Part shown: one piece after another, positions 2,207 through 39,068 of the stretch | Position numbering within the stretch: the first letter of the stretch is position 1 | Layout of the letters: every line of letters starts with the position of its first letter | The notes under the pieces: model-generated | What the model was told of the DNA's origin: nothing | Seen by the model: only the letters and a program-made list of their open reading frames with translations | The model's database searches: none | Program-made: the position numbers and the translations under genes | Assembly: GCF_004006315.1 (NCBI RefSeq) | Contig: NZ_CP026530.1 | Coordinates: 501,618-565,617, forward strand | Length of the DNA stretch: 64,000 nucleotides | Reading direction: 5' to 3' | Source of the DNA: Nautilia sp. PV-1 | Lineage (GTDB): Bacteria > Campylobacterota > Campylobacteria > Campylobacterales > Nautiliaceae

Positions 2207-3273
2207 ACTCCGTAAGTATGTATAAATTCTTTTTTGCTGATTAAATTTTCCAAAATAGCAAAAAGTATCATAAAATTGATAAAACTGGTCCCACCATGGC
2301 TTATGAGAGGTAATGGCACGCCGACGACTGGGGCAAGGTTCATAGTCATTGCAATATTGATGTAAGAATAAATAAAAAGCATCAATCCTACACCCGCAAA
2401 CATAACTTTTGCAAAATAGTCTTCTTTAAGTTTTTTTGCTATTCGCAATAAATAAAAAATAAGTATAAAATATAAAAATATAACGGAACTTGCACCTATA
2501 AAACCAAATCTTTCTACCAGATAAGCGAAAATAAAATCACTGCTGGCAATAGGTAGAAATTTAAGCTGGGTTTGAGTGGCCTCATCTTTACTTTTACCGC
2601 TGAGTCCTCCGCTTCCTATGGCAATCATAGACTGTCTGACATGGTAGCTTGGTTTATTTAAAAAATCTTCGATTCTCTGTTTTTGATAGTCTTTCATTAT
2701 ATATTTGTAGTATATCGGTGCGAATAAAACTGCCCCTATACTGAGAGTGATCCATATTTTTTTATCTACTCCTACGATAAACAACACTCCAAAACCGATA
2801 ATAAGTGTAATTAATGCCGTTCCTAAATCAGGTTCTTTCGCAATAAGTATAAACGGAAGAATAATAAAAAAAGAAAGTTTTAAAAATTCTTTAAAATTAT
2901 ACTGGGGTCTTGGAGGATACTTATATATTAAATATCCAAGCATAAGAAGAAGCGTGGTTTTCATAAATTCGGAAGGCTGTATTGTAATATTTAAAAGAGG
3001 TATTTTAAGCCATCTTTGTGCACCTAATATTCTAAGCCCCACAGTGTCCACGAGAATGAGTAAAAATATATTAAACCAATAGATTATCGGTATAAGCCAT
3101 AAAAGCTTTCTGATAGGAAGTATATATGTAATAACGAATACTATTACTCCTATACCGATATATATCAGCTCTTTAATAAAAAGCCTATGGGATATTTCAT
3201 TAACCAGAAAAAGACTTAAAAAAATAAAAGGGAGAATGAGTAAGATGAGAGTTATATTGAATTTTTTGCTCAC
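2200..3273 (-). CDS. rodA: Rod-shape-determining glycosyltransferase RodA (SEDS family)
   Basis: Peptidoglycan polymerase of the elongation machinery, acting in the inner membrane with a class B PBP. The 357-residue protein has about ten hydrophobic segments. SEDS signatures are visible: QPSEFMK in the middle, [11 protein letters not shown], and the C-terminal [12 protein letters not shown]. This size and the gene context fit RodA better than FtsW, which is usually longer, though FtsW cannot be fully excluded. The start codon overlaps the end of the upstream chemoreceptor gene by 4 bases (ATGA), so the two are translationally coupled. Its stop codon is supplied by a heptamer repeat unit. Confidence 0.88.
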
Positions 3274-4703
3274 TTACACGGCTCTTTTGAATATTTTTCA
3301 AATACGTTGTCGATAGTTTGAGAAAGTTTATGAGAGATGTTTTCGATTTCTTCAAAGTTTTTAATTGTCTGATCTTTATTGGAAATACATGTTTTTTCTT
3401 TAGTACATTCAAGAGCTTTTTTGGTAAGTTCATGAATTTGTCTATGAAGATTGTCTTTGATTAGTTTATATTCAGGATAACATCCGATTTTTTGTATAGA
3501 CTCTTCGCTAAGCAGCCATTTACCGAAATCACATTCTGTATCTGTCGAAATTTCTATCGGTTTTTCTTCGATAATAGCGGCATGAGCATTTAATTTAAAT
3601 ATCAGATGTGAAATTTTTGCTAAGTCCATAAGCATTCTTGTAAGTGCTAAATCTACGTTTCTTCTGTTTTCAAGAGATTTGTCTCTGAAGCCTATAACCA
3701 TGTTTTGAACAATTTCTATATCTTCTCTCGAAGTAGTGGCCATTTCTGTTATTTTTTCAGAATTTGCCTGAATATCGCTTGTTTCCTGCTGCAGTGTTTT
3801 AATTGTAATGGAAATTTCGCTTGTTGCTTTTTGGGTTCTTTCAGCAAGTTTTCTTACTTCATCAGCAACTACGGCAAATCCTCGTCCGTGTTCTCCGGCT
3901 CTAGCCGCTTCTATAGCTGCGTTTAGGGCAAGAAGATTTGTCTGATCCGCAATATCGGTAATAAGTTCTACTATTTTGCCTATTTCATCTGTTCTTTGAG
4001 AAAGCATGTTAATCGCTTCGTTGGTATGTGCAATAAAATCAATAAGTTCGTTTAATACATTAGTAAGGTTTTCTATTTTAACCGCACTGGCGTCTGCGCC
4101 TTCATATATTTCGCCGGAAAGCTCATCGATTTTAATCATAAATTCTTTAAGTTTTGTATCGAGAGAAGTTTTTATCTCATTTATTTGAGTTTTTATTCCT
4201 CCTCCTAGATTGTTTAAAGTCATTGCGAGTTCGCTTCTCGCCTGTTCTTTAAGGGCTGTTGAGATAGCGTCAATTGCGTCGTTTAGCATAATTACCGTTC
4301 TTCTGAATGTTCCCTTATATCCCTGAGGAGCGATATCTCTGTAATCGATACCGTTTTTGGCTGCTTCAATAGATTCTTTTATGTCTCTTTCGAAAGCTTC
4401 TAACTGATCTAACAGATCATTTAAAGCCCATGCGGCTTTTGAAGAAGGATCAGAAAGATCGATATGAGTTATTCTGTTTTCAAAATTTCCGTTTGACGCT
4501 TCTAATAATATCTTTTCTATTTCTTCTTGAAGATTGCTTTGTTTTGATGAAGATTTTTTATTGTTGGATATAAAAATAAGTAACGTTATTATCAAACCTA
4601 CCGCTGAAATAACTGCAGACACGTAATCAGCATTGATTCCAGTGTAAATGCCCAGAATTAAAAATATAACCCCGCTTATTGCCGCCAATACTTTATAGTT
4701 CAT
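3270..4703 (-). CDS. CetA-like methyl-accepting chemotaxis protein with C-terminal CZB zinc-binding domain
   Basis: Two closely spaced N-terminal hydrophobic segments (residues about 5-48) with almost no periplasmic loop are followed by a coiled coil and the receptor hairpin tip ([23 protein letters not shown] region). The last ~110 residues carry a CZB pattern: His near 374, C391 in CDFGKWL, and H420/H424 in LHRQIH. CZB domains bind zinc and sense hypochlorite or zinc in other proteins. The lack of a periplasmic domain and the overlapping upstream PAS gene match the bipartite energy-taxis receptor CetA/CetB known in Campylobacter, although Campylobacter CetA is not known to me to carry a CZB domain. 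Confidence 0.8.
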
Positions 4704-5226
4704 TGATTATTCCTTTTTGGATTTTTAGCATTACTTCGTTAAAACTCATATTGTGTTTTTTGAGCAGATCATCGACTGCTTTCAAACTTCCGTCCATGCC
4801 TTCGCTGTTTTCTATGTTGAGCAATGTTCTGTAAAGCGGTTCGATAATAAACTTGAATCCTTCTTTTGGTTTTCTTCTGACCGAATAATATCCGATCATG
4901 TTTCCGTTGTTGTCGTATGTAGGCGAAATGTTTGCGAATACCCAGTAATATCCGCCGTCTTTTCTTAAGTTTTTAACATATCCAAACCATTCTTTTCCGT
5001 TTTGGATATGATCATAAAGAACTTTGAATGCACATCTAGGCATATCCGGATGTCTTAAAATATTATGAGGCTTTCCTAACAGTTCTTCTTCTTGCCATCC
5101 GCTCATTTGAATAAAGATCTGATTACCGTATAATATTCTGCTTTTCAGATCTGTTTTGGATATGATAAAATCTTCTTCGTTTAAAACAACTTCCTTTTCT
5201 ATAGGAGTTACAGCCGGTTTTTTCAT
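4693..5226 (-). CDS. PAS-domain energy-taxis sensor, CetB/Aer-like
   Basis: A cytoplasmic protein of 177 residues with one PAS domain (about residues 15-130). The motifs [32 protein letters not shown] and [17 protein letters not shown] are typical of FAD-binding PAS domains of the Aer/CetB type. There is no membrane segment and no receptor signalling domain, so it needs a partner; the next gene, overlapping by 11 bases, is a membrane chemoreceptor without its own sensor domain. The pair is inferred to report redox or electron-transport state to the flagellar motor. Confidence 0.8.
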
Positions 5227-21506: not shown

Positions 21507-21929
21507 ATGAAAAAGTTGTTTCTAGTTTTGATGCTAGCCGGCAGTCTGTTCGCAATAGACTGGAGCGGTAAAATTAACTGGGCTATGAGTTATAGTGTAG
21601 CTCAGAATATTGCGAAGTCCACCCATAAACTGGTAATGGTGGATATAGGTCTGACGACATGTCCTCCTTGTATGTACTTAGCTGAAAAAGTATATACGGA
21701 TCCGAAAGTCTCATCTTATATCAATAAAAATTTTGTTCCTGTATTTTATTTAGCCGATCAGGACGTGCTTCCTCCTACCGTACAGAATTACTTTACGGGT
21801 TCTACTCCTACAATTCTCTTTTTAAAACCTAACGGCGAGCTTGTTTACTCATTAATCGGCGCTAGACCTCCACAAACATTTTTACAAATTATTAAAAACG
21901 TAAATGAAAAATATAAAGGAAACAAATGA
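21507..21929 (+). CDS. Periplasmic thioredoxin-like protein (CPPC)
   Basis: A signal peptide (residues 1-16, ending LFA) and a thioredoxin fold with active site TTCPPCMYL and the cis-proline region GSTPTILFL. The length is 140. It overlaps ccsBA by 4 bases (ATGA), so its likely role is reducing the CXXCH cysteines of apocytochromes before heme attachment, as ResA/CcmG-type proteins do. Confidence 0.82.
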   Translation: MKKLFLVLMLAGSLFAIDWSGKINWAMSYSVAQNIAKSTHKLVMVDIGLTTCPPCMYLAEKVYTDPKVSSYINKNFVPVFYLADQDVLPPTVQNYFTGSTPTILFLKPNGELVYSLIGARPPQTFLQIIKNVNEKYKGNK

Positions 21930-24382
21930 TTAAAAAGTTATACAATGTGTTTTTCTCATTGGAAACTGCTGTAGTTCTGTCTTTGGTTTTTATATTAGGA
22001 CAGATGTATGCAACTTTAGGTTTCAGCACTATGGCTCAGGCCTGGGGTTACGTTTATGAAACAAAATGGTTTGAAGCTATTATGTGGCTTTTAGGTATTA
22101 ATTTAGTTGGTGTGATGTTAAGATATAAAACTTATAAAAAGCTACCGGTGTTTATACTGCATTTATCGGTGATTATTATATTGATCGGAGCGGCTGTTAC
22201 CAGATATTTCGGGTATGAAGGCACGCTTCATTTAAGAAACGGTGAAACAAAAAACGTTATTATGGTGGAAAAAAGTAAATCGAACCCTTCAAACGTTTAT
22301 CCTAAAAAACTAGGTTTTGAAATAAGACTGGATAAATTCGTATTAAGAAAATATCCGGGAAGTATGCAGCCAAGCAGTTATGACAGTTATGTCACTGTTA
22401 TAGACAAAGCTCATAATAAAACTTTTAAATATCATATATATATGAACCATATTCTGGTTTACAGAGGTTACAGATTTTATCAGGCAAGTTACGATATGGA
22501 TGCTCAGGGAAGTATTTTATCAGTTAACCATGATCCCGGAATGTATATAACCTATTTCGGTTATGCTTTAATGGCTATTGGATTTTTCTGGAGTATGGCT
22601 TACAGAAGAAGCAGATTTATGCTTACAGTTAAAAAACTTAAACAAAGCGGACTGTTTGCATTTTTATTAATGATGCTGCTCGGCAACGGTTATGTACATG
22701 CCAATGAAATCAACAATCTGCCTAAAATATCAAAGCAGGCTGCAGATTTATGGGCCCATGTACTTGTCCAGCAAAGCGGTAGAATCGAACCTATGGATAC
22801 GCTTGATTTGGATATTATCCATAAACTGACACTTAAATCCAAAATGTATGGCTTAAGTTACAATCAGCTGGTAGCTGGAATGGTGGCATATCCTTCTAAG
22901 TATCAGAATCTGCCTCTTATTTACGTAGGACATCCAAAAATCAGAAAATTACTCGGAATTAAAGGTAAATATGCACCTTACAGCGCATTTTTCCTTCCTA
23001 ACGGAGATTTCAGATTTTCAAAAGAGATTGATGAAGCGTTTAAAACACCGAATAAAGACAGAAATGTCCTACAAAGGGAATGGATTAAAATTAACGACAG
23101 GGTTTATGTGGCTTTTGAAGTATATACGGCCAAAATATTTAAAATATTCCCGACTCCAAAAGCGGAAAAAATGAATTACAGATGGTTTAGTATTGCGGAT
23201 ATTGCACAGGCTGTGAAAATGAATCTTATGAATCCGATGGACGCACAGTTTTATTACAACATGTTTGCAAATCTTGCGGAAGCTATGAAAAACAACGATT
23301 TAAAAGCAATGAAGCAGATAGAAGAAAAAATTTACGCGTTGCAAAAAAATTACAGCGGAAAAATTTTACCTAGTGAAACAAAAGTAAAATGGGAAATTAT
23401 TTATAACAGACTTCAGATATTCCCTAAACTTATAGGCGCATATACTCTTTTAGGTTTAATTGCGATCTTCTTAGGATTTTTTGAAATTATTAAACTGAAA
23501 AGATATAAAAAAGTTGAAACGGCTGTGGTTCTTTTCGGTTATTTGGCTTTATGTGTTCATACGGCAAATATGTTGTTAAGATGGTATGTTGCCGGTCATG
23601 CTCCTTGGTCGGATGCTTATGAGTCAATCATATTTATTGCATGGGGCAGTGCATTTGCATCGCTTGTCTTCTTTAGAAAATCTATGCTTGCATTGGGTGC
23701 GGGTCTGTTTGTTGCAGGTATGTTTATGATGGTTGCACACTTAAACAACATATCTCCGCAGATTACGAATATGGTGCCGGTGCTTAAATCGTACTGGCTG
23801 CTGATACATGTTGCGGTAATTACATCAAGTTACGGTTTCTTGGGTGTGGGAAGTATGCTTGGCCTGTTGAATCTTATTCTGTTTGCTATGAATAAAAAAT
23901 ATAAACTCGAAACACAGATAAAACAGTTAAACAACATCATTTACATTTCATTATATATCGGACTGGCTTTATTAAGTATCGGTACTTTCTTAGGCGGTGT
24001 ATGGGCTAACGAGTCATGGGGTAGATACTGGTCTTGGGACCCTAAAGAAACATGGAGTCTTATTTCTATGATTGTTTACGCTTTGGTTATTCACGGAAAA
24101 ATGATGCCGAAACTAAGAGGAGAATTTATATTTTCATTAATGAGCTTTTTAAGCTTCTTCTTTATTTTAATGACATATTTCGGAGTGAATTTCTATATTG
24201 CCCAGGGTCTTCACAGTTACGGTCAGGGAGTTGCGGACGGTTACGGATGGATCAATATTATCTTTGCGGGAATGGGTGCATGGTTTGCTATTTTGATTTT
24301 AGGGCTTGTTCAGAATATTTTAAACAAAGTGTCAAAACCTGTAAAAATAGACAATAACGAATATCATCCAGATAAAGGGTAA
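21926..24382 (+). CDS. ccsBA: Fused cytochrome c synthetase CcsBA (ResB-ResC)
   Basis: System II heme lyase that exports heme and attaches it to apocytochrome c in the periplasm. The N-terminal ResB-like half has membrane segments near residues 10-30, 48-66 and 73-90 and a large periplasmic domain; the C-terminal ResC-like half has about eight helices and the heme-handling WWD domain (WANESWGRYWSWDPKETWSL). The length of 818 is on the short side for this fusion. It is translationally coupled to the thioredoxin-like gene and to hemA. Confidence 0.93.
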   Translation: MIKKLYNVFFSLETAVVLSLVFILGQMYATLGFSTMAQAWGYVYETKWFEAIMWLLGINLVGVMLRYKTYKKLPVFILHLSVIIILIGAAVTRYFGYEGTLHLRNGETKNVIMVEKSKSNPSNVYPKKLGFEIRLDKFVLRKYPGSMQPSSYDSYVTVIDKAHNKTFKYHIYMNHILVYRGYRFYQASYDMDAQGSILSVNHDPGMYITYFGYALMAIGFFWSMAYRRSRFMLTVKKLKQSGLFAFLLMMLLGNGYVHANEINNLPKISKQAADLWAHVLVQQSGRIEPMDTLDLDIIHKLTLKSKMYGLSYNQLVAGMVAYPSKYQNLPLIYVGHPKIRKLLGIKGKYAPYSAFFLPNGDFRFSKEIDEAFKTPNKDRNVLQREWIKINDRVYVAFEVYTAKIFKIFPTPKAEKMNYRWFSIADIAQAVKMNLMNPMDAQFYYNMFANLAEAMKNNDLKAMKQIEEKIYALQKNYSGKILPSETKVKWEIIYNRLQIFPKLIGAYTLLGLIAIFLGFFEIIKLKRYKKVETAVVLFGYLALCVHTANMLLRWYVAGHAPWSDAYESIIFIAWGSAFASLVFFRKSMLALGAGLFVAGMFMMVAHLNNISPQITNMVPVLKSYWLLIHVAVITSSYGFLGVGSMLGLLNLILFAMNKKYKLETQIKQLNNIIYISLYIGLALLSIGTFLGGVWANESWGRYWSWDPKETWSLISMIVYALVIHGKMMPKLRGEFIFSLMSFLSFFFILMTYFGVNFYIAQGLHSYGQGVADGYGWINIIFAGMGAWFAILILGLVQNILNKVSKPVKIDNNEYHPDKG

Positions 24383-30727: not shown

Positions 30728-30863
30728 TTTTCTTCTTTTTCTTTTATTAATAACTTACATTTTTCTTACATCTGTCTGATAAGATTAACTTATAATTAAT
30801 TGTTTTTTATGCTTTTATGTTAGACTAATGTTACGAATAAATATTCATATAAAAGGATTATTA

Positions 30864-32396
30864 ATGTCTCAAATTAAATTAGATCCAATTACGAGAATAG
30901 AGGGACATTTAAAAGTAGAAGTAAATGTAAACAACGGTAAAGTCACGGATGCCAAATGCAGTGCCGACATGTATCGGGGTATTGAAAAAGCATTAAAAGG
31001 ATATGATTATTTAACCGCTATTCACATAACTCAAAGAACATGCGGATGCTGTCCTTACGCTCATGCGGAAGCAGCGGCTTTAGCAATAGAAAACGCACTC
31101 AAAATAGAGTTAAACAAAAACGGAAAGCTTTTAAGAAACATGGTAATCGGAGCTTACAAACTAAAAGACTATCTTTTGCATTTTTATACATTGAGTCTGC
31201 TTGATTTTATGGATATTAAGGCGATTTTGGATTATGAAGGCAACGACAGTGATTTGCTTGAACTCAAAAGATGGGTTTTAAAAGAAATTTCATCTAACAA
31301 AGTGTTTCCATCTCCTCTTTTTTTACAGAGATTCAAAGCCAATTATATAACACTCAAAGAGTTAAATATAGTTTTAATTAAACATTATTTGGAAAGTTTT
31401 GAGATAATGAAAAAAATAGACACGATGGTGAAAATTTTCGGTTCCAAATCTCCGCATATGGTTTCTATAGAAGCAGGGGGAGTCACCACTATGCCTACCG
31501 CGGACAGGTTAATAAAATATATCGATCTGGCGAAAGAAACCAGTGTGTTTATACAAGAGAAATATTTAAATGATGTGATAGAAGTGGCAAAACAGTATAA
31601 AGAATATTTTAAAATAGGTAAAGGACCGGATAATTTTCTTACTTTTAACACTCTTTTAAATTTAGACGGTTCGTATGAATTTGTTCAGGGAATCAGCACG
31701 GATTATAAGCTGAATGAAAACATAGACCCTTACAATATTGTAGAGTATAACGGATTCGCCTATTACAAAGAAAGCGGAGGTTACAAGCCTCTGGAGCTTA
31801 CCCAGCTGACACCTATCACTCTTGAGGAATTTAAACATGAAACAAAAAAATATTCCTGGTCAAGAGCTCCGAGATTTGAAGGACGTGTAGTCGAAGTTGG
31901 ACCTTCGGCCATTATAATTAATACTTATTTAAGCGGCAAAAATAAAAAATTAAATTCATTGGTGGATAAAATCAACGCTGAACTGGGAATTACACTCCAG
32001 GATTATAATTCGGTGATGGGAAGGCACCTGGCAAGAGCTATTATTTCACAGCTGATAATGGATAAAATTTTCAACGATGCTTTAAATGTTGATGAGGGGG
32101 TTTTAGGATTTATTCAGCTTCCGGAAATACCTAACAATGTTAAGGGTATAGGGCTTACTGAAGCCACAAGGGGAGCGCTTGCGCATTTTATAGAAATAGG
32201 TGAAAACGGTTTTATTAAAAATTATGAAATGATAGTGCCTACTACATGGAACATTTCACCAAAAGACAACAGCGGTATCCACGGCGCCCTAGAACAGATG
32301 CTAATAGGCACTGAAATAAAAGATGAAAAAAATCCTATAGAAATAGCCAGAATAGTTAGAAGTATCGATCCTTGTCTGGCTTGTGCCGTGCATTAA
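30864..32396 (+). CDS. [NiFe] hydrogenase large subunit, sensor-like, no C-terminal extension
   Basis: The Ni-Fe site cysteines are C60 and C63 in QRTCGCCPYAH and C504 and C507 in DPCLACAVH. The variable residue inside the first motif is itself a Cys (C62), where V or I is usual. The protein stops exactly at the final His (H510), so there is no peptide for a HydD/HyaD-type protease to remove. Large subunits of H2-sensing (HupV/HoxC) and some energy-converting hydrogenases share this feature. I start at ATG 30864 with AAAGGA upstream; the in-frame ATG at 30828 has none. Unusually, the large subunit gene precedes the small one. Confidence 0.9.
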   Translation: MSQIKLDPITRIEGHLKVEVNVNNGKVTDAKCSADMYRGIEKALKGYDYLTAIHITQRTCGCCPYAHAEAAALAIENALKIELNKNGKLLRNMVIGAYKLKDYLLHFYTLSLLDFMDIKAILDYEGNDSDLLELKRWVLKEISSNKVFPSPLFLQRFKANYITLKELNIVLIKHYLESFEIMKKIDTMVKIFGSKSPHMVSIEAGGVTTMPTADRLIKYIDLAKETSVFIQEKYLNDVIEVAKQYKEYFKIGKGPDNFLTFNTLLNLDGSYEFVQGISTDYKLNENIDPYNIVEYNGFAYYKESGGYKPLELTQLTPITLEEFKHETKKYSWSRAPRFEGRVVEVGPSAIIINTYLSGKNKKLNSLVDKINAELGITLQDYNSVMGRHLARAIISQLIMDKIFNDALNVDEGVLGFIQLPEIPNNVKGIGLTEATRGALAHFIEIGENGFIKNYEMIVPTTWNISPKDNSGIHGALEQMLIGTEIKDEKNPIEIARIVRSIDPCLACAVH

Positions 32397-32414
32397 ACTC
32401 TAAGGAGAAAAATA

Positions 32415-33341
32415 ATGATGAACAGAAGAGAATTTTTAAAAGCAGTGCATAAAGCTCTTATTGCTGCCGGAGGTGCAGGGTTTTTCAGTATGGAAGAATT
32501 AGAAGCTCTAGAAATAGGAGATATTAAAAAACCGGATATTATTTGGCTGCAGGCAATGAGCTGTGACGGATGCTCCACTTCGTTTTTAAACGCCGATATC
32601 TCTATACTTGATATATTAACGTCGTTTACAAATGTTATTTTTCATCCCACTTTAATGGCCGCAACAGGTGAAATGGCTACGGATATTATTGAAAAATATA
32701 AAAGTGACAACCTGATTCTTGTTGTTGAAGGTGCGATTCCGACTCAGCTTCCGCATGCATGCTTGATGGGGGACAGGTTTATAAACGACTGGATTGCAAA
32801 TACCGCCAAAAAAGCAAAAGCAGCTATTTCGGCAGGAACATGTGCGACTTTTGCGGGTATATGTGATATGAAGGGAATGATGACCGGTGCCGGCAGTCTG
32901 AGATATTTCTTAGAACAGGAAAATATATCAACTCCTGTAGTCAATCTGCCTACATGTCCTATGAAACCTAATCATTTTCTTTATACACTGTTTTTTTATA
33001 TTAAACATAATACTCTGCCTCCTATGGACGATTCGAACAGACCTCTCAGATTTTTTGGAGAAACGATTCATGACAGATGCGTATACTATTATGACTATCA
33101 GGAAAAGAATTTTGCAGAAAAAATTGGAGACAGAGGATGTCTTTTTAAATTAGGATGTCAGGGACCTGTAACAAAAAACGACTGTGTAAGAAGTTCAAAT
33201 ACATATGATAAATATAACTGCATTAAATCTGGGCATCCTTGTGTAGGATGTGCCAGTGAAAATTTTCCTAGGACCATTATGTTCAAAAGAAGCGACGATA
33301 AAAGAGAAATAAAAAAATATAAAACGTTTAAAAGGATATAA
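32415..33341 (+). CDS. [NiFe] hydrogenase small subunit, partner of the sensor-like large subunit
   Basis: Carries the proximal-cluster motif SCDGCSTSF, later GTCATFAG and LPTCPMKP, then the distal and medial cluster ligands [16 protein letters not shown] and [12 protein letters not shown]. The N-terminus [10 protein letters not shown] looks like a twin-arginine motif, but the following segment is only weakly hydrophobic and shows no AxA cleavage site. It may therefore be exported without cleavage, or be a relic. The length is 308. It lies 18 bases after the large subunit with AAGGAG ahead, and 2 bases before the chemoreceptor gene. Confidence 0.88.
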
Positions 33342-33343
33342 AA

Positions 33344-35107
33344 ATGAAAGATTTTTTTAAGTCCGCGCTTTTTTTTAAATTAATAATTATTCCTATTATT
33401 CTGCTCAGTGTATCCATTATAGGTTCAATTATTTATTTGGAAAAATTCGGAAAAGAGCTTGTGCAGAAAAAAGGAGCGGAATATACAAAAAGCGTTTTGT
33501 CCTCTTATATAAAATTTTCAAAAGACTCTATAGAAAAAGGACAGAGAAAAACGTTTCAGGAAGTTGTTAATGCCGTAAAAACAATTGACGGAGTGGAAGA
33601 CGTTTACGCGTATTCATGCGACGGGTTTTTAAAGTATAAAAACAATCAGGTGTCTGTTGGGCTTCCTTTTTTAAAACAAAACGGGAAATTAATCAATCTT
33701 AACGTTCCTTTGTATAAAAAAACAAAAGGATTATGGTTAAGGGACGACTGGTTTTATAAAGATCTGATAAATTCCAAAGTGTCAAAAAAATGTGTTGATA
33801 AATACGGTAAAAACAGCTGTGCGAGATGTCATGTCATGCTTCCTAAAGGGCTTCATTTTAAAAATGATGTAGCAATGGTTAAACATAAAAATTTAATGAC
33901 CGCTTATTATAAAATACCGGTTGAAAACTTTTGTATAAAATGCCATACACACTGGCATGTTAATCAGCCTTCCGGGTATTTGGGCATAAAAGTGAATTTA
34001 AAAGGGGAACAGGCTAAAATAGAAGCCATAATAAATAAACTTAAACTGATATTCTTGTTTTTATCTTTAGTCGGAATGGTGATATTTATTTATTATATTT
34101 ATGTTGTAGGAAAACTCAGAACCAGTCTGATAGTATTGAAAGACATAACAGCGGATCTTGCTAAAGGCGAAGGTGATTTAACTAAAAGAGTTAAAGTCGC
34201 AACCAGCGATGAAACTAAAGATATTGCTGACAACCTTAATGAGTTTATTGAAAAAATCCAGCTTATTGTAAATAATCTTAAAAATACAATCAGTGTTTCG
34301 AATTCAACTTCCAAAGATATTGAAAACTCGGTAAAAATAATTGAGGACACTATAGAAGAGCAGTCAAAACTTATTGAAAAAAACAAAATAAACACCAATG
34401 TGATAAACGACAGTATTAAAGTTACCAATGACACTATTTATGCAGTCGTGAACGATATTTCCAAAACTCAGGAAACTTTGGACAAAACGTTAAAGTCACT
34501 GCAAAAAGTTATATCTAAAATAGAAGAGGAAACATCACAGGAGCAGGAACTTTCAAATAAAGCCACTCAGCTGGTTCAGCATAGCTCTCAAATAAAAGAT
34601 ATATTAAATATCATTAAAGAAATAGCCGATCAGACTAATTTGCTTGCCTTAAATGCTGCAATAGAAGCTGCAAGAGCGGGAGAGCATGGAAGAGGTTTTT
34701 CTGTAGTTGCGGATGAGGTGAGAAAACTTGCAGAAAAAACTCAGAAAAGTTTAGGAGAAATAGATTCTGTTGTTAATGAAATTGTAAGCGGCATAGAAGA
34801 AATAGAACAGGAAATCCAGCATAATGCCAGTGAAGCAAATGAGATTCTTGAAATTGCCACAATGCTTACAGAAGAAACTAATCTTACAAAAAACAATCTC
34901 GATAAAACTATAGAAAATGTTGAAAACGCCGCCGAACAGAGTGCAAAAACAACTGAGAATATCGATATGCTTCTTAAATCGTCCGAAGATTTGTATGTGC
35001 AGGCAAAAAGAAGCAGGGAAGTTGGGGAAAATTTAAAAAACGTTTCAAATACTCTAAAAAATATTTTGAATACGTTAAAAGACGAAACGAATAAATTTAA
35101 GTCTTAA
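33344..35107 (+). CDS. Methyl-accepting chemotaxis protein with diheme periplasmic domain
   Basis: Membrane segments at about residues 12-32 and 230-254 flank a periplasmic domain with two covalent heme motifs, CARCH (159-163) and CIKCH (197-201). HAMP follows (about 255-305), then the signalling domain with tip [20 protein letters not shown]. The start is 2 bases after the hydrogenase small subunit stop, so the three genes are almost certainly one operon. Known heme-containing chemoreceptors sense redox state or gases; here the natural electron source is the hydrogenase. This points to H2-directed taxis, as inference. Confidence 0.9.
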
Positions 35108-36486: not shown

Positions 36487-37068
36487 GTGAGTAAAGAAGA
36501 AAAAAAAGAACTGATAATGAAAACTGCTCTTAATCTTTTTGCCAAGCAAGGTTTTTACAATACTACAATCGCTGATATAGCGAAAGAAATGGGAATGAGT
36601 GTTGGAAATATGTACAATTATTTTCCTTCTAAAGAGTCTTTAGCCAAGGAACTGCTGATTTATACTTCTAAAAAATTCGGAGATGAAATCAGAAAAATAA
36701 ACGAAATGGATATAAGCAGCAAAGAAAAAATAAGACATATTGTCGAACTCTATTTTAATATGGCTTTAAACGCGCCGGAATTAGTGGATTATTTTATGAG
36801 AGTTTACCTGTCCAATAAAGAAATATTTGCAAACGGATGTGAGGGAATGCTCTGCGTATCTGCTTTTGTAACGGAAATTATGATATTTTTTGAAGAAGGT
36901 GTAAGAAAAAAAGAGCTTAAAAACCAGGATTTTTTTGCGGCGTTCGGTCTTTTTATGGGATATGTGGGAGGACTGGCGTTTTTAAATAAAGAAGGTATTC
37001 TTTCTAAACCTCTGTTGGAATATGTAGAACCTGTAAGCGAGAATATATACAATGCGCTCAAAGCTTAA
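36487..37068 (+). CDS. TetR/AcrR-family transcription regulator linked to H2-sensing hydrogenase
   Basis: The N-terminal helix-turn-helix is clear: LIMKTALNLFAKQGFYNTTIADIAKEMGMSVGNMYNYF, given here only as the region at residues about 8-46. The C-terminal ligand domain has a CEGMLC pair. I choose GTG 36487, which has AAAAAAGG upstream; the in-frame ATG at 36448 precedes an AT-rich TATAAT-containing stretch that looks like the promoter. The gene overlaps the following hydrogenase small subunit by 17 bases, so regulator and hydrogenase are made together. Confidence 0.85.
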   Translation: MSKEEKKELIMKTALNLFAKQGFYNTTIADIAKEMGMSVGNMYNYFPSKESLAKELLIYTSKKFGDEIRKINEMDISSKEKIRHIVELYFNMALNAPELVDYFMRVYLSNKEIFANGCEGMLCVSAFVTEIMIFFEEGVRKKELKNQDFFAAFGLFMGYVGGLAFLNKEGILSKPLLEYVEPVSENIYNALKA

Positions 37069-37915
37069 AGTTATATGGATTGATGCGGTAACATGTTACG
37101 GCTGTACCCATTCGTTTCTTAATTACAAAGAGATTTCTTCTCTTTTTGATAAAATCGATTTTAAATATCATCCTATATTTCTGTCCGAAGAATTTGAAAT
37201 TCAATCTTGCGATCTGCTTATTGTCGAAGGAGCTTTGAAGTTAAATTATCCTAGGCTTGGATTTTCATTAAATGAATTGATTTCAAAGCTCTTTTTTAAA
37301 GCAAAAAAAGTTTTGGCTTTGGGTACATGTGCGGTTTACGGAGGTATATACGGCGAAGGGCTGATGTTTAACAGGGAAAACAGGGGACATTATCATAAAT
37401 GCAGGGATAAAATTATAAATCTTCCGGGCTGTCCTCCTCATCCGGACTGGATAGCGTTTGTAATGGACATGGTAAGCGAAGACAAAAAAATAGAACTGGA
37501 TGAATTAAACAGGCCTAAAGATATTTTTGCTTATACATCACATATGGGATGTACCAGAAACGAATATTTCGAATGGAAAATTGATGCCGAGGAATTTGGT
37601 ACCAAAGAAGGGTGTCTGTTTTATTTTCAAGGCTGCCAGGGTCCGTTTACGCATAGCAGCTGTAATAAAGTGCTGTGGAATGAGGTGAGTTCCAAACCGA
37701 GAGCCGGGACTCCTTGTTTTGGATGTACTGAAGCCAATTTCCCTAAAAACGAACTGTTTAAAACAGATACCTTTATGGGAATTCCGGCAAATATTCCTTT
37801 AGGTGTCAGCAAAAGGGCGTATCTGACGTTAAGCGGAATAGCAAAAAGTTTGAATAACGAAAGACTCAGCTGCAAACTCATTAATTATAAATGCGGGGAT
37901 AAAAATGAAAATTAA
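37052..37915 (+). CDS. HupU/HoxB-like small subunit of an H2-sensing hydrogenase
   Basis: There is no signal peptide: the first cluster motif TCYGCTHSF starts at about residue 14, so the protein stays in the cytoplasm, as regulatory hydrogenases do. Other ligands are GTCAVYGG, LPGCPPHPD, SHMGCTRNEYF, GCLFYFQGCQGP and TPCFGCTEANFP. The 287-residue length fits HupU. It overlaps the TetR gene upstream and the large subunit downstream (11 bases). Confidence 0.88.
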   Translation: MRSKLKVIWIDAVTCYGCTHSFLNYKEISSLFDKIDFKYHPIFLSEEFEIQSCDLLIVEGALKLNYPRLGFSLNELISKLFFKAKKVLALGTCAVYGGIYGEGLMFNRENRGHYHKCRDKIINLPGCPPHPDWIAFVMDMVSEDKKIELDELNRPKDIFAYTSHMGCTRNEYFEWKIDAEEFGTKEGCLFYFQGCQGPFTHSSCNKVLWNEVSSKPRAGTPCFGCTEANFPKNELFKTDTFMGIPANIPLGVSKRAYLTLSGIAKSLNNERLSCKLINYKCGDKNEN

Positions 37916-39068
37916 TAAAAAGATCATAAATAAAATAGAAGGAGAAGCTACTTTAAAAATCCACGGTGATAAAGAAGTAGAGTTTGTAGAAATAGAATTT
38001 TGGCAGTATCACGGTATTGAAGACTATTTGAAAAACAGGCATTTTATGGACGCTCTTGTAATCAATCCCAGAGTATGCGGTATTTGCGGCCATTCTCATT
38101 TATATGCTACAGTAAAGGCTATTGAAAAAGTCTTTAAAGCGAAAATTTCTCAAAAAGCCCAGATTTTTAGAGAAATAACAACTCTTTTGGAAATTGTCGA
38201 AAATCATATCAAATGGTTTTATATTACTATATTTCCGACTCAGGTAAAAGATAAAAGCTATATTTTCAAAGCTGTAAAATTTTCCTCTAAGATATCTAAA
38301 GCAATTGCAATGCTTGCCGGACAGTTTCCTCATAATTCTTATATGATTCCTGGGGGAGTCACATGCGATCCGACTTATATGGAAATTATGAGACTTAAAG
38401 ATTTAATTAAAGAAATCCTTGATGAGTATAAAAATGAAATAATGGATGAAGAAGTTTATTCTAAAGATTTGGAGCTTTTTTTTGAAAACCTCCCTAAAAA
38501 TATAGGTAAAAGTTTAAACAGATTTTTGGTTTTAGGTGAATCGGCAGTTTTTAAAAGTAACGGGGATTATGAGTTTGTTACGGAAGAAAAAAACAGATCT
38601 TTAAGCAAAAACGCTTTATATAAGAATGAATTTTATGAAGTGGGACCACTGGCAAGAGCCATTGTGAACGGAAATGAAAATATAAAAAAAATTTATGAAC
38701 AGTTAGGTGATTCCATCTATACAAGAATGGCCGCAAGGGTATATGAGCCATTAATTCTTTTAGAATATATTATGGAAAAGATTGATAAAATAGATTTATG
38801 CGAGCCGTCTTTTATCAAACCGGAAATAAAAAACGGAACTGCAAAAGTTGCCGTTGAAGCTCCAAGAGGAAGCTTAATCCATGAAATATCAATAAAAAAT
38901 GAAAAAATCGAAAACTATAATATTATAGTTCCTACGCAGTTTAACCTTGCATCTTCTTCTAAAGAAAATCCTGCAGCCGCACAGGCGGCGTTAATGAATG
39001 AAAACAGCGAATATGTTGATTCAATATTCAGATGTTTTGACATTTGTGCCGTTTGTATGTCCCATTGA
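37905..39068 (+). CDS. HupV/HoxC-like large subunit of an H2-sensing hydrogenase, no C-terminal extension
   Basis: The active-site cysteines are C58 and C61 in RVCGICGHSH and C381 and C384 in DICAVCMSH. The chain ends at H387, exactly where maturation proteases cut ordinary large subunits. At 387 residues it is much shorter than the usual 450-580, mainly through trimmed internal loops, yet all four cysteines are kept. No HupT-type kinase is adjacent; the partner seems to be the co-transcribed TetR regulator. An alternative is a group 2d-like cytoplasmic uptake enzyme. Confidence 0.85.
   Translation: MKINKKIINKIEGEATLKIHGDKEVEFVEIEFWQYHGIEDYLKNRHFMDALVINPRVCGICGHSHLYATVKAIEKVFKAKISQKAQIFREITTLLEIVENHIKWFYITIFPTQVKDKSYIFKAVKFSSKISKAIAMLAGQFPHNSYMIPGGVTCDPTYMEIMRLKDLIKEILDEYKNEIMDEEVYSKDLELFFENLPKNIGKSLNRFLVLGESAVFKSNGDYEFVTEEKNRSLSKNALYKNEFYEVGPLARAIVNGNENIKKIYEQLGDSIYTRMAARVYEPLILLEYIMEKIDKIDLCEPSFIKPEIKNGTAKVAVEAPRGSLIHEISIKNEKIENYNIIVPTQFNLASSSKENPAAAQAALMNENSEYVDSIFRCFDICAVCMSH

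Follow-up and report, generated by a model that had tools for sequence, protein, structure and literature searches.

The window analysed here is a 64,000-nucleotide stretch of the Nautilia sp. PV-1 genome (501618-565617 of a single 1.791 Mb contig), in which three genes follow one another on the forward strand. The first, hydL (30864-32396), encodes a group 1a-like [NiFe]-hydrogenase large subunit of 510 residues. The second, hydS (32415-33341), encodes a small subunit with a twin-arginine (RR) leader (NRREFLK) and without a C-terminal membrane helix. The third (33344-35107) encodes a diheme-type chemoreceptor, which consists of a transmembrane (TM) segment, a periplasmic sensor, a second TM segment, a HAMP-like segment and the signalling domain of a methyl-accepting chemotaxis protein (MCP). 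A preliminary description of this DNA read the three genes as a candidate H2-taxis system, in which the hydrogenase passes electrons from H2 to the hemes of the receptor. Its open reading frames and the gaps of 18 and 2 bases between them are confirmed; hydL has an alternative in-frame ATG at 30828. From the periplasmic hydrogenase and the receptor, the gene order continues with a DJ-1 protein, a small ORF, HypA, TetR, a cytosolic hydrogenase and HynABC, the last ~6 kb downstream of the cassette; this order agrees with the locus tags listed for strain PV-1 (PMC10092268). The cytosolic pair (37052-39068, forward strand) is leaderless and of a kind described in the literature as H2-sensing (group 2); no HupT/HoxJ-like kinase was seen directly beside it. 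The genome contains TatC, CheA/CheW and 12 MCP genes, and by our own reading 21926-24382 in the window is a putative CcsBA-like cytochrome c synthesis gene.

The hydrogenase subunits

HydL matches PF00374 over nearly its full length (E 6e-126), and its closest solved structure is 1h2r, a periplasmic [NiFe] hydrogenase. Both the RxCGxC and the DPCxxCxxH motifs are found in HydL, and all the [NiFe]-site residues checked are present (E13, R58, C60, C63, H67, R436, D502, C504, C507 and H510). The active site has Cys504 rather than the selenocysteine (Sec) of the [NiFeSe] enzymes, and the scores of the hydrogenase against the NCBIfam [NiFeSe] models NF045518 and NF045520 are below their cut-offs. 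HydS matches PF01058, PF14720 and TIGR00391; its closest solved small subunit is 1cc1, which is of the [NiFeSe] type. The ligands of the proximal, medial and distal clusters are all present in HydS, corresponding to three [4Fe-4S] clusters. Cys269, a Pro in Hyn, aligns with a Cys in 1cc1, and the medial cluster is therefore predicted to be [4Fe-4S]. Sequence affinity, motifs and cluster ligands place the enzyme with group 1a, 1h2r and 1cc1 being its best solved relatives. The corresponding pair in N. profundicola was described as NiFeSe-like and probably a soluble periplasmic uptake enzyme, in a passage that does not mention the receptor (Campbell et al., 2009; PMC2628731).

The twin-arginine-like start of HydS pointed out in the preliminary description is present and is kept in all nine orthologues. 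The leader combines the RR motif with a moderately hydrophobic stretch and shows no clear AxA cleavage site. The cytosolic small-subunit homologue in the same window has no RR leader and begins at the mature sequence. That HydL ends exactly at the metal-site His (DPCLACAVH, without a C-terminal extension) is equally true; the preliminary description called this a trait known from H2-sensing HupV/HoxC. The same ending is found in the molybdoenzyme-linked orthologues described below and in the neighbouring cytosolic hydrogenase (37905-39068), and the trait is thus no evidence for sensing. We therefore rejected the missing extension as a sign of this function.

The regulatory hydrogenases of group 2b were considered as a class for this enzyme. 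Their large subunits likewise lack the C-terminal extension, as do all the orthologues here, including those not linked to a receptor. However, the small subunit is not leaderless in any of the nine orthologues, and the adjoining gene is an MCP, not a HupT/HoxJ kinase. The RR leader and the MCP neighbour rule out membership in group 2b.

It was proposed that the products of loci RS02955 and RS02960 of strain PV-1 replace HynAB (PMC10092268). HydLS would then stand in for HynAB as a spare pair of subunits, docking on HynC and supplying the quinone pool, and the receptor would be a passenger. The nearby HynABC genes in the window are in line with this proposal. However, HydS has neither an anchor helix nor the C-terminal extension of the Hyn small subunits, to which it is only ~35% identical, and the cassettes of the other genomes keep the receptor although Hyn does not lie next to them. 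That HydS lacks this C-terminal segment and that the receptor is conserved argue against HynC docking as the main role, and we regard this explanation as very improbable.

The chemoreceptor and its heme motifs

The receptor has a canonical MCP signalling domain (PF00015, MCPsignal; E 5e-34) with a conserved hairpin tip; its HAMP match is under the cut-off. Two hydrophobic stretches at residues ~8-26 and 236-254, the two TM segments expected of a chemoreceptor, enclose a sensor domain of ~200 residues (~33-232). The two CXXCH motifs noted in the preliminary description are found there: CARCH at residues 159-163 (33818-33832, forward strand) and CIKCH at residues 197-201 (33932-33946, forward strand), the latter followed by THW. 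Since both lie between the hydrophobic stretches, they are placed on the periplasmic side. In all eight sensors aligned, both Cys and the His of CARCH are invariant, and so are C197, C200, H201, T202 and W204 in the CIKCH region. In a pairwise alignment with a monoheme Cache-type relative (E 1e-6), it is the second motif that pairs with the relative's only one, and the first motif is extra. Beyond the motifs, no His, Met or Cys is invariant in the eight sensors as a distal heme ligand, so the receptor hemes may be open and may bind gas. Column ~150 holds a Cys (Cys150) in six of the sequences and, at roughly that position, a His in the other two. The Cys/His heme ligation described for Tll0287 (PMC12889525) makes this residue, by analogy, a candidate heme ligand.

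The sensor has no significant match to PF11845 (sCache_heme); the best E is 0.1, and weak matches are seen in four of the eight members. A PDB sequence search with the sensor revealed no significant relative. The AlphaFold model of the sensor has a mean pLDDT of 76, and its Foldseek matches include WalK, KinD and the Geobacter heme sensors GSU0582/GSU0935, none of them with E < 0.001. The modelled fold appears Cache-like, and the sensor looks like a c-heme Cache domain that has one heme motif more.

These features bear on the main alternative to the H2-taxis reading, that the receptor hemes sense NO or the general redox potential, the hydrogenase being co-transcribed for H2-rich reduced niches with no direct coupling. 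The Cache-like sensor with its Foldseek matches, the weak PF11845 matches and the lack of an invariant distal ligand are all in keeping with it, and fused, signalling-linked c-heme Cache domains have been reported as NO binders (PMC12889525). One genome (G042) has the diheme receptor (L076:8269-10041; 70% identical to that of G001 in the sensor) without the hydrogenase: no orthologous small subunit was found in that genome, the contig of which ends 361 bases upstream of the receptor. The receptor occurring alone and the NO binding by related c-heme Cache sensors mean that the input need not be electrons from H2. However, this alternative offers no reason for two heme motifs in place of the usual one, and it has to be weighed against the distribution of the genes.

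Conservation of the hydrogenase-receptor pairing

The preliminary description had staked its reading on conservation of the hydrogenase-MCP adjacency in relatives. We found hydL, hydS and the MCP gene in the same order in seven genomes of Campylobacterota, which represent three families (G000, G001, G002, G012, G029, G231 and G282). The chromosomal sites are mostly different, and the gap between hydS and the MCP gene is 2-3 bases in all seven cassettes. The pairing is no peculiarity of one genome. A search of 60 relatives with hydS identified five close orthologues beside the window's own (80, 72, 66, 65 and 49% identity), clearly apart from the ordinary Hyn subunits at 37% identity or less. 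In a class-level draw of 397 genomes, used for both the sensor and the small-subunit searches, the hydS type is found in 8 genomes, the diheme sensor in 7 and both in 6, and the two are always adjacent where both occur. The hypergeometric P of this co-occurrence, 3.7e-11, ignores kinship and is hence optimistic. A phylum-wide draw gave about the same genomes. Two of the cassettes (G231 and G282) were added by the sensor search; their receptors are only ~32% identical in the sensor and ~30% in the signalling part, and the pairing is kept. A scan of genome contigs with two strict peptide patterns, which could miss distant pairs in other phyla, found only three relatives, each a Nautiliaceae/Campylobacterales MAG that the set already contained. 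No sensor-domain match was found in the plasmid collection, where the hydrogenase matches are ordinary uptake enzymes with at most ~33% identity.

The neighbours of the cassette differ among the window, G029, G012, G231 and G282. G001 and G002 share their neighbours, and the cassette is inverted in place between them (L039:7995-12220 and L040:8282-12522). A search for inverted repeats flanking the cassette, as a possible cause of the inversion, brought up none that stood out. The persistence of the cassette across different sites and an inversion argues more strongly for a functional unit than would adjacency at one place. The NO or redox alternative leaves unexplained why the receptor is adjacent to the hydrogenase in six of the seven sensor-bearing genomes, at changing sites. 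We consider that alternative unlikely, while still giving it real weight.

Two genomes (G055 and G375) have the hydrogenase only. In both, hydLS ends an operon with a molybdoenzyme (L042:2165-9803 and L085:9410-17068), the predicted partners being, by our own reading, a Tat-type molybdoenzyme, a ferredoxin-like protein and a TorD-like protein. This operon possibly encodes an H2-linked periplasmic reductase. Its occurrence suggests that hydrogenases of this type act as a module combined with one partner or another, the receptor being the most frequent partner within the set. Beside one of these operons (L085:17585-19876) lies regularly repeated DNA with the in-frame reading IIAFTCRNGSYN / VIASVPTCKCYN, probably a CRISPR array. 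Trees of HydS (in which three rows are badly extracted fragments) and of HydL both contain three clades, the Nautilia type, G231/G282 and G055/G375, without resolving how these branch from one another. We therefore make no claim of a single origin, or of gain as against loss.

A proposed H2-sensing module and its relation to known systems

The hydrogenase and the heme receptor together suggest a dedicated sensor through which swimming would respond to H2, the link between them being genomic. The periplasmic heme motifs, the RR leader and the genomic TatC and CheA/CheW give a topology that fits this reading. In the mechanism we propose, the Tat pathway would export HydS together with the folded large subunit, and the hydrogenase, which has no membrane anchor helix itself, would reside in the periplasm. 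There it would oxidise H2, and the three [4Fe-4S] clusters would carry the electrons to the pair of c-type hemes in the Cache-like periplasmic domain of the adjacent receptor. The redox change of the hemes, probably with a change of axial ligand, would move the transmembrane helices and alter CheA activity, and swimming would then track the H2 supply. Export, heme attachment, docking, electron transfer and H2 taxis with its sign are steps that we infer. The c-heme MCP sensors of Geobacter undergo a redox-driven spin and axial-ligand switch (PMC8396549), which provides a precedent for the receptor half of the mechanism.

HoxBC/HupUV with HoxJ/HupT (group 2b) likewise use a [NiFe] hydrogenase as the H2 input to a histidine-kinase pathway, and their large subunit, like HydL, stops at the metal-site His. 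HoxBC controls HoxJ through complex formation (PMC6978683), indicating that a hydrogenase can serve as the H2 input of a kinase. HydLS could signal in the same style, by protein contact through an activity-dependent conformation, with the hemes in another role. The basic C-terminal tail KYKxFKRI of the Nautilia-type receptor-linked small subunits, which differs in the molybdoenzyme-linked ones, could be taken to favour such contact. However, the heme motifs are invariant in every paired receptor and point to a redox role. HoxBC is also cytosolic, has no leader and controls transcription, whereas the enzyme here is group 1a-like, has an RR leader and has as its partner a chemoreceptor with c-heme motifs. 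Signalling by contact alone therefore seems to us improbable.

The proposed electron transfer to the receptor can be compared with other redox partners and sensors. Periplasmic group 1a [NiFe] and [NiFeSe] hydrogenases of Desulfovibrio reduce multiheme cytochromes c. HydLS shares with the Desulfovibrio enzymes its sequence family, active site and solubility, and with the [NiFeSe] ones the predicted medial [4Fe-4S] cluster; it differs from them in having Cys for Sec, no C-terminal extension and a presumed heme partner that is the receptor, not cytochrome c3. In the sensors of the sCache_heme/DUF3365/Tll0287-like type, including Geobacter GSU0582 and GSU0935 and Desulfovibrio DcrA, a periplasmic c-type-heme domain is likewise joined to an MCP. 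The receptor here has its CXXCH motifs, like theirs, towards the C-terminal end of the domain and appears to share their Cache/PAS-like fold. It differs from them in its second heme motif, in the absence of a significant PF11845 match and in having a hydrogenase as fixed partner. In Aer and CetAB energy taxis a redox cofactor also controls a chemoreceptor, but there an FAD-PAS protein senses the electron-transport state and the operon has no dedicated enzyme gene. On the reverse strand of the window (3270-5226), a PAS protein of 177 residues is encoded immediately upstream of an MCP whose C-terminus is CZB-like, and the two look like a CetAB-type bipartite energy-taxis pair.

To our knowledge, no receptor or enzyme input has been identified for the H2 taxis of the archaeon Methanococcus maripaludis, which swims toward H2 (Brileya, 2013, cited in PMC4266047). 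The open-access literature searched contained neither the combination of a hydrogenase and a diheme receptor nor a description of a bacterial H2 receptor, though H2 taxis itself has been observed.

Of the earlier H2-taxis reading, the functional link between hydrogenase and receptor stands on the conserved adjacency, its sites and the inversion, while the argument from the missing extension falls away. We judge it slightly better than an even chance that the three genes constitute a self-contained, movable H2-sensing chemotaxis module with electron flow to the receptor hemes. The wider reading, that a dedicated periplasmic enzyme passes electrons directly to the hemes of a chemoreceptor, with substrate turnover in place of ligand binding as the signal, making this the first bacterial H2-taxis receptor and the first enzyme-gated redox chemoreceptor module, is plausible but falls somewhat short of even. 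Kept as a unit, the three genes help to make the question of an H2 receptor directly testable. If the module works as proposed, it would provide a chemotaxis input via a dedicated enzyme and would put a name to a bacterial H2 receptor, in vent organisms that live on H2.
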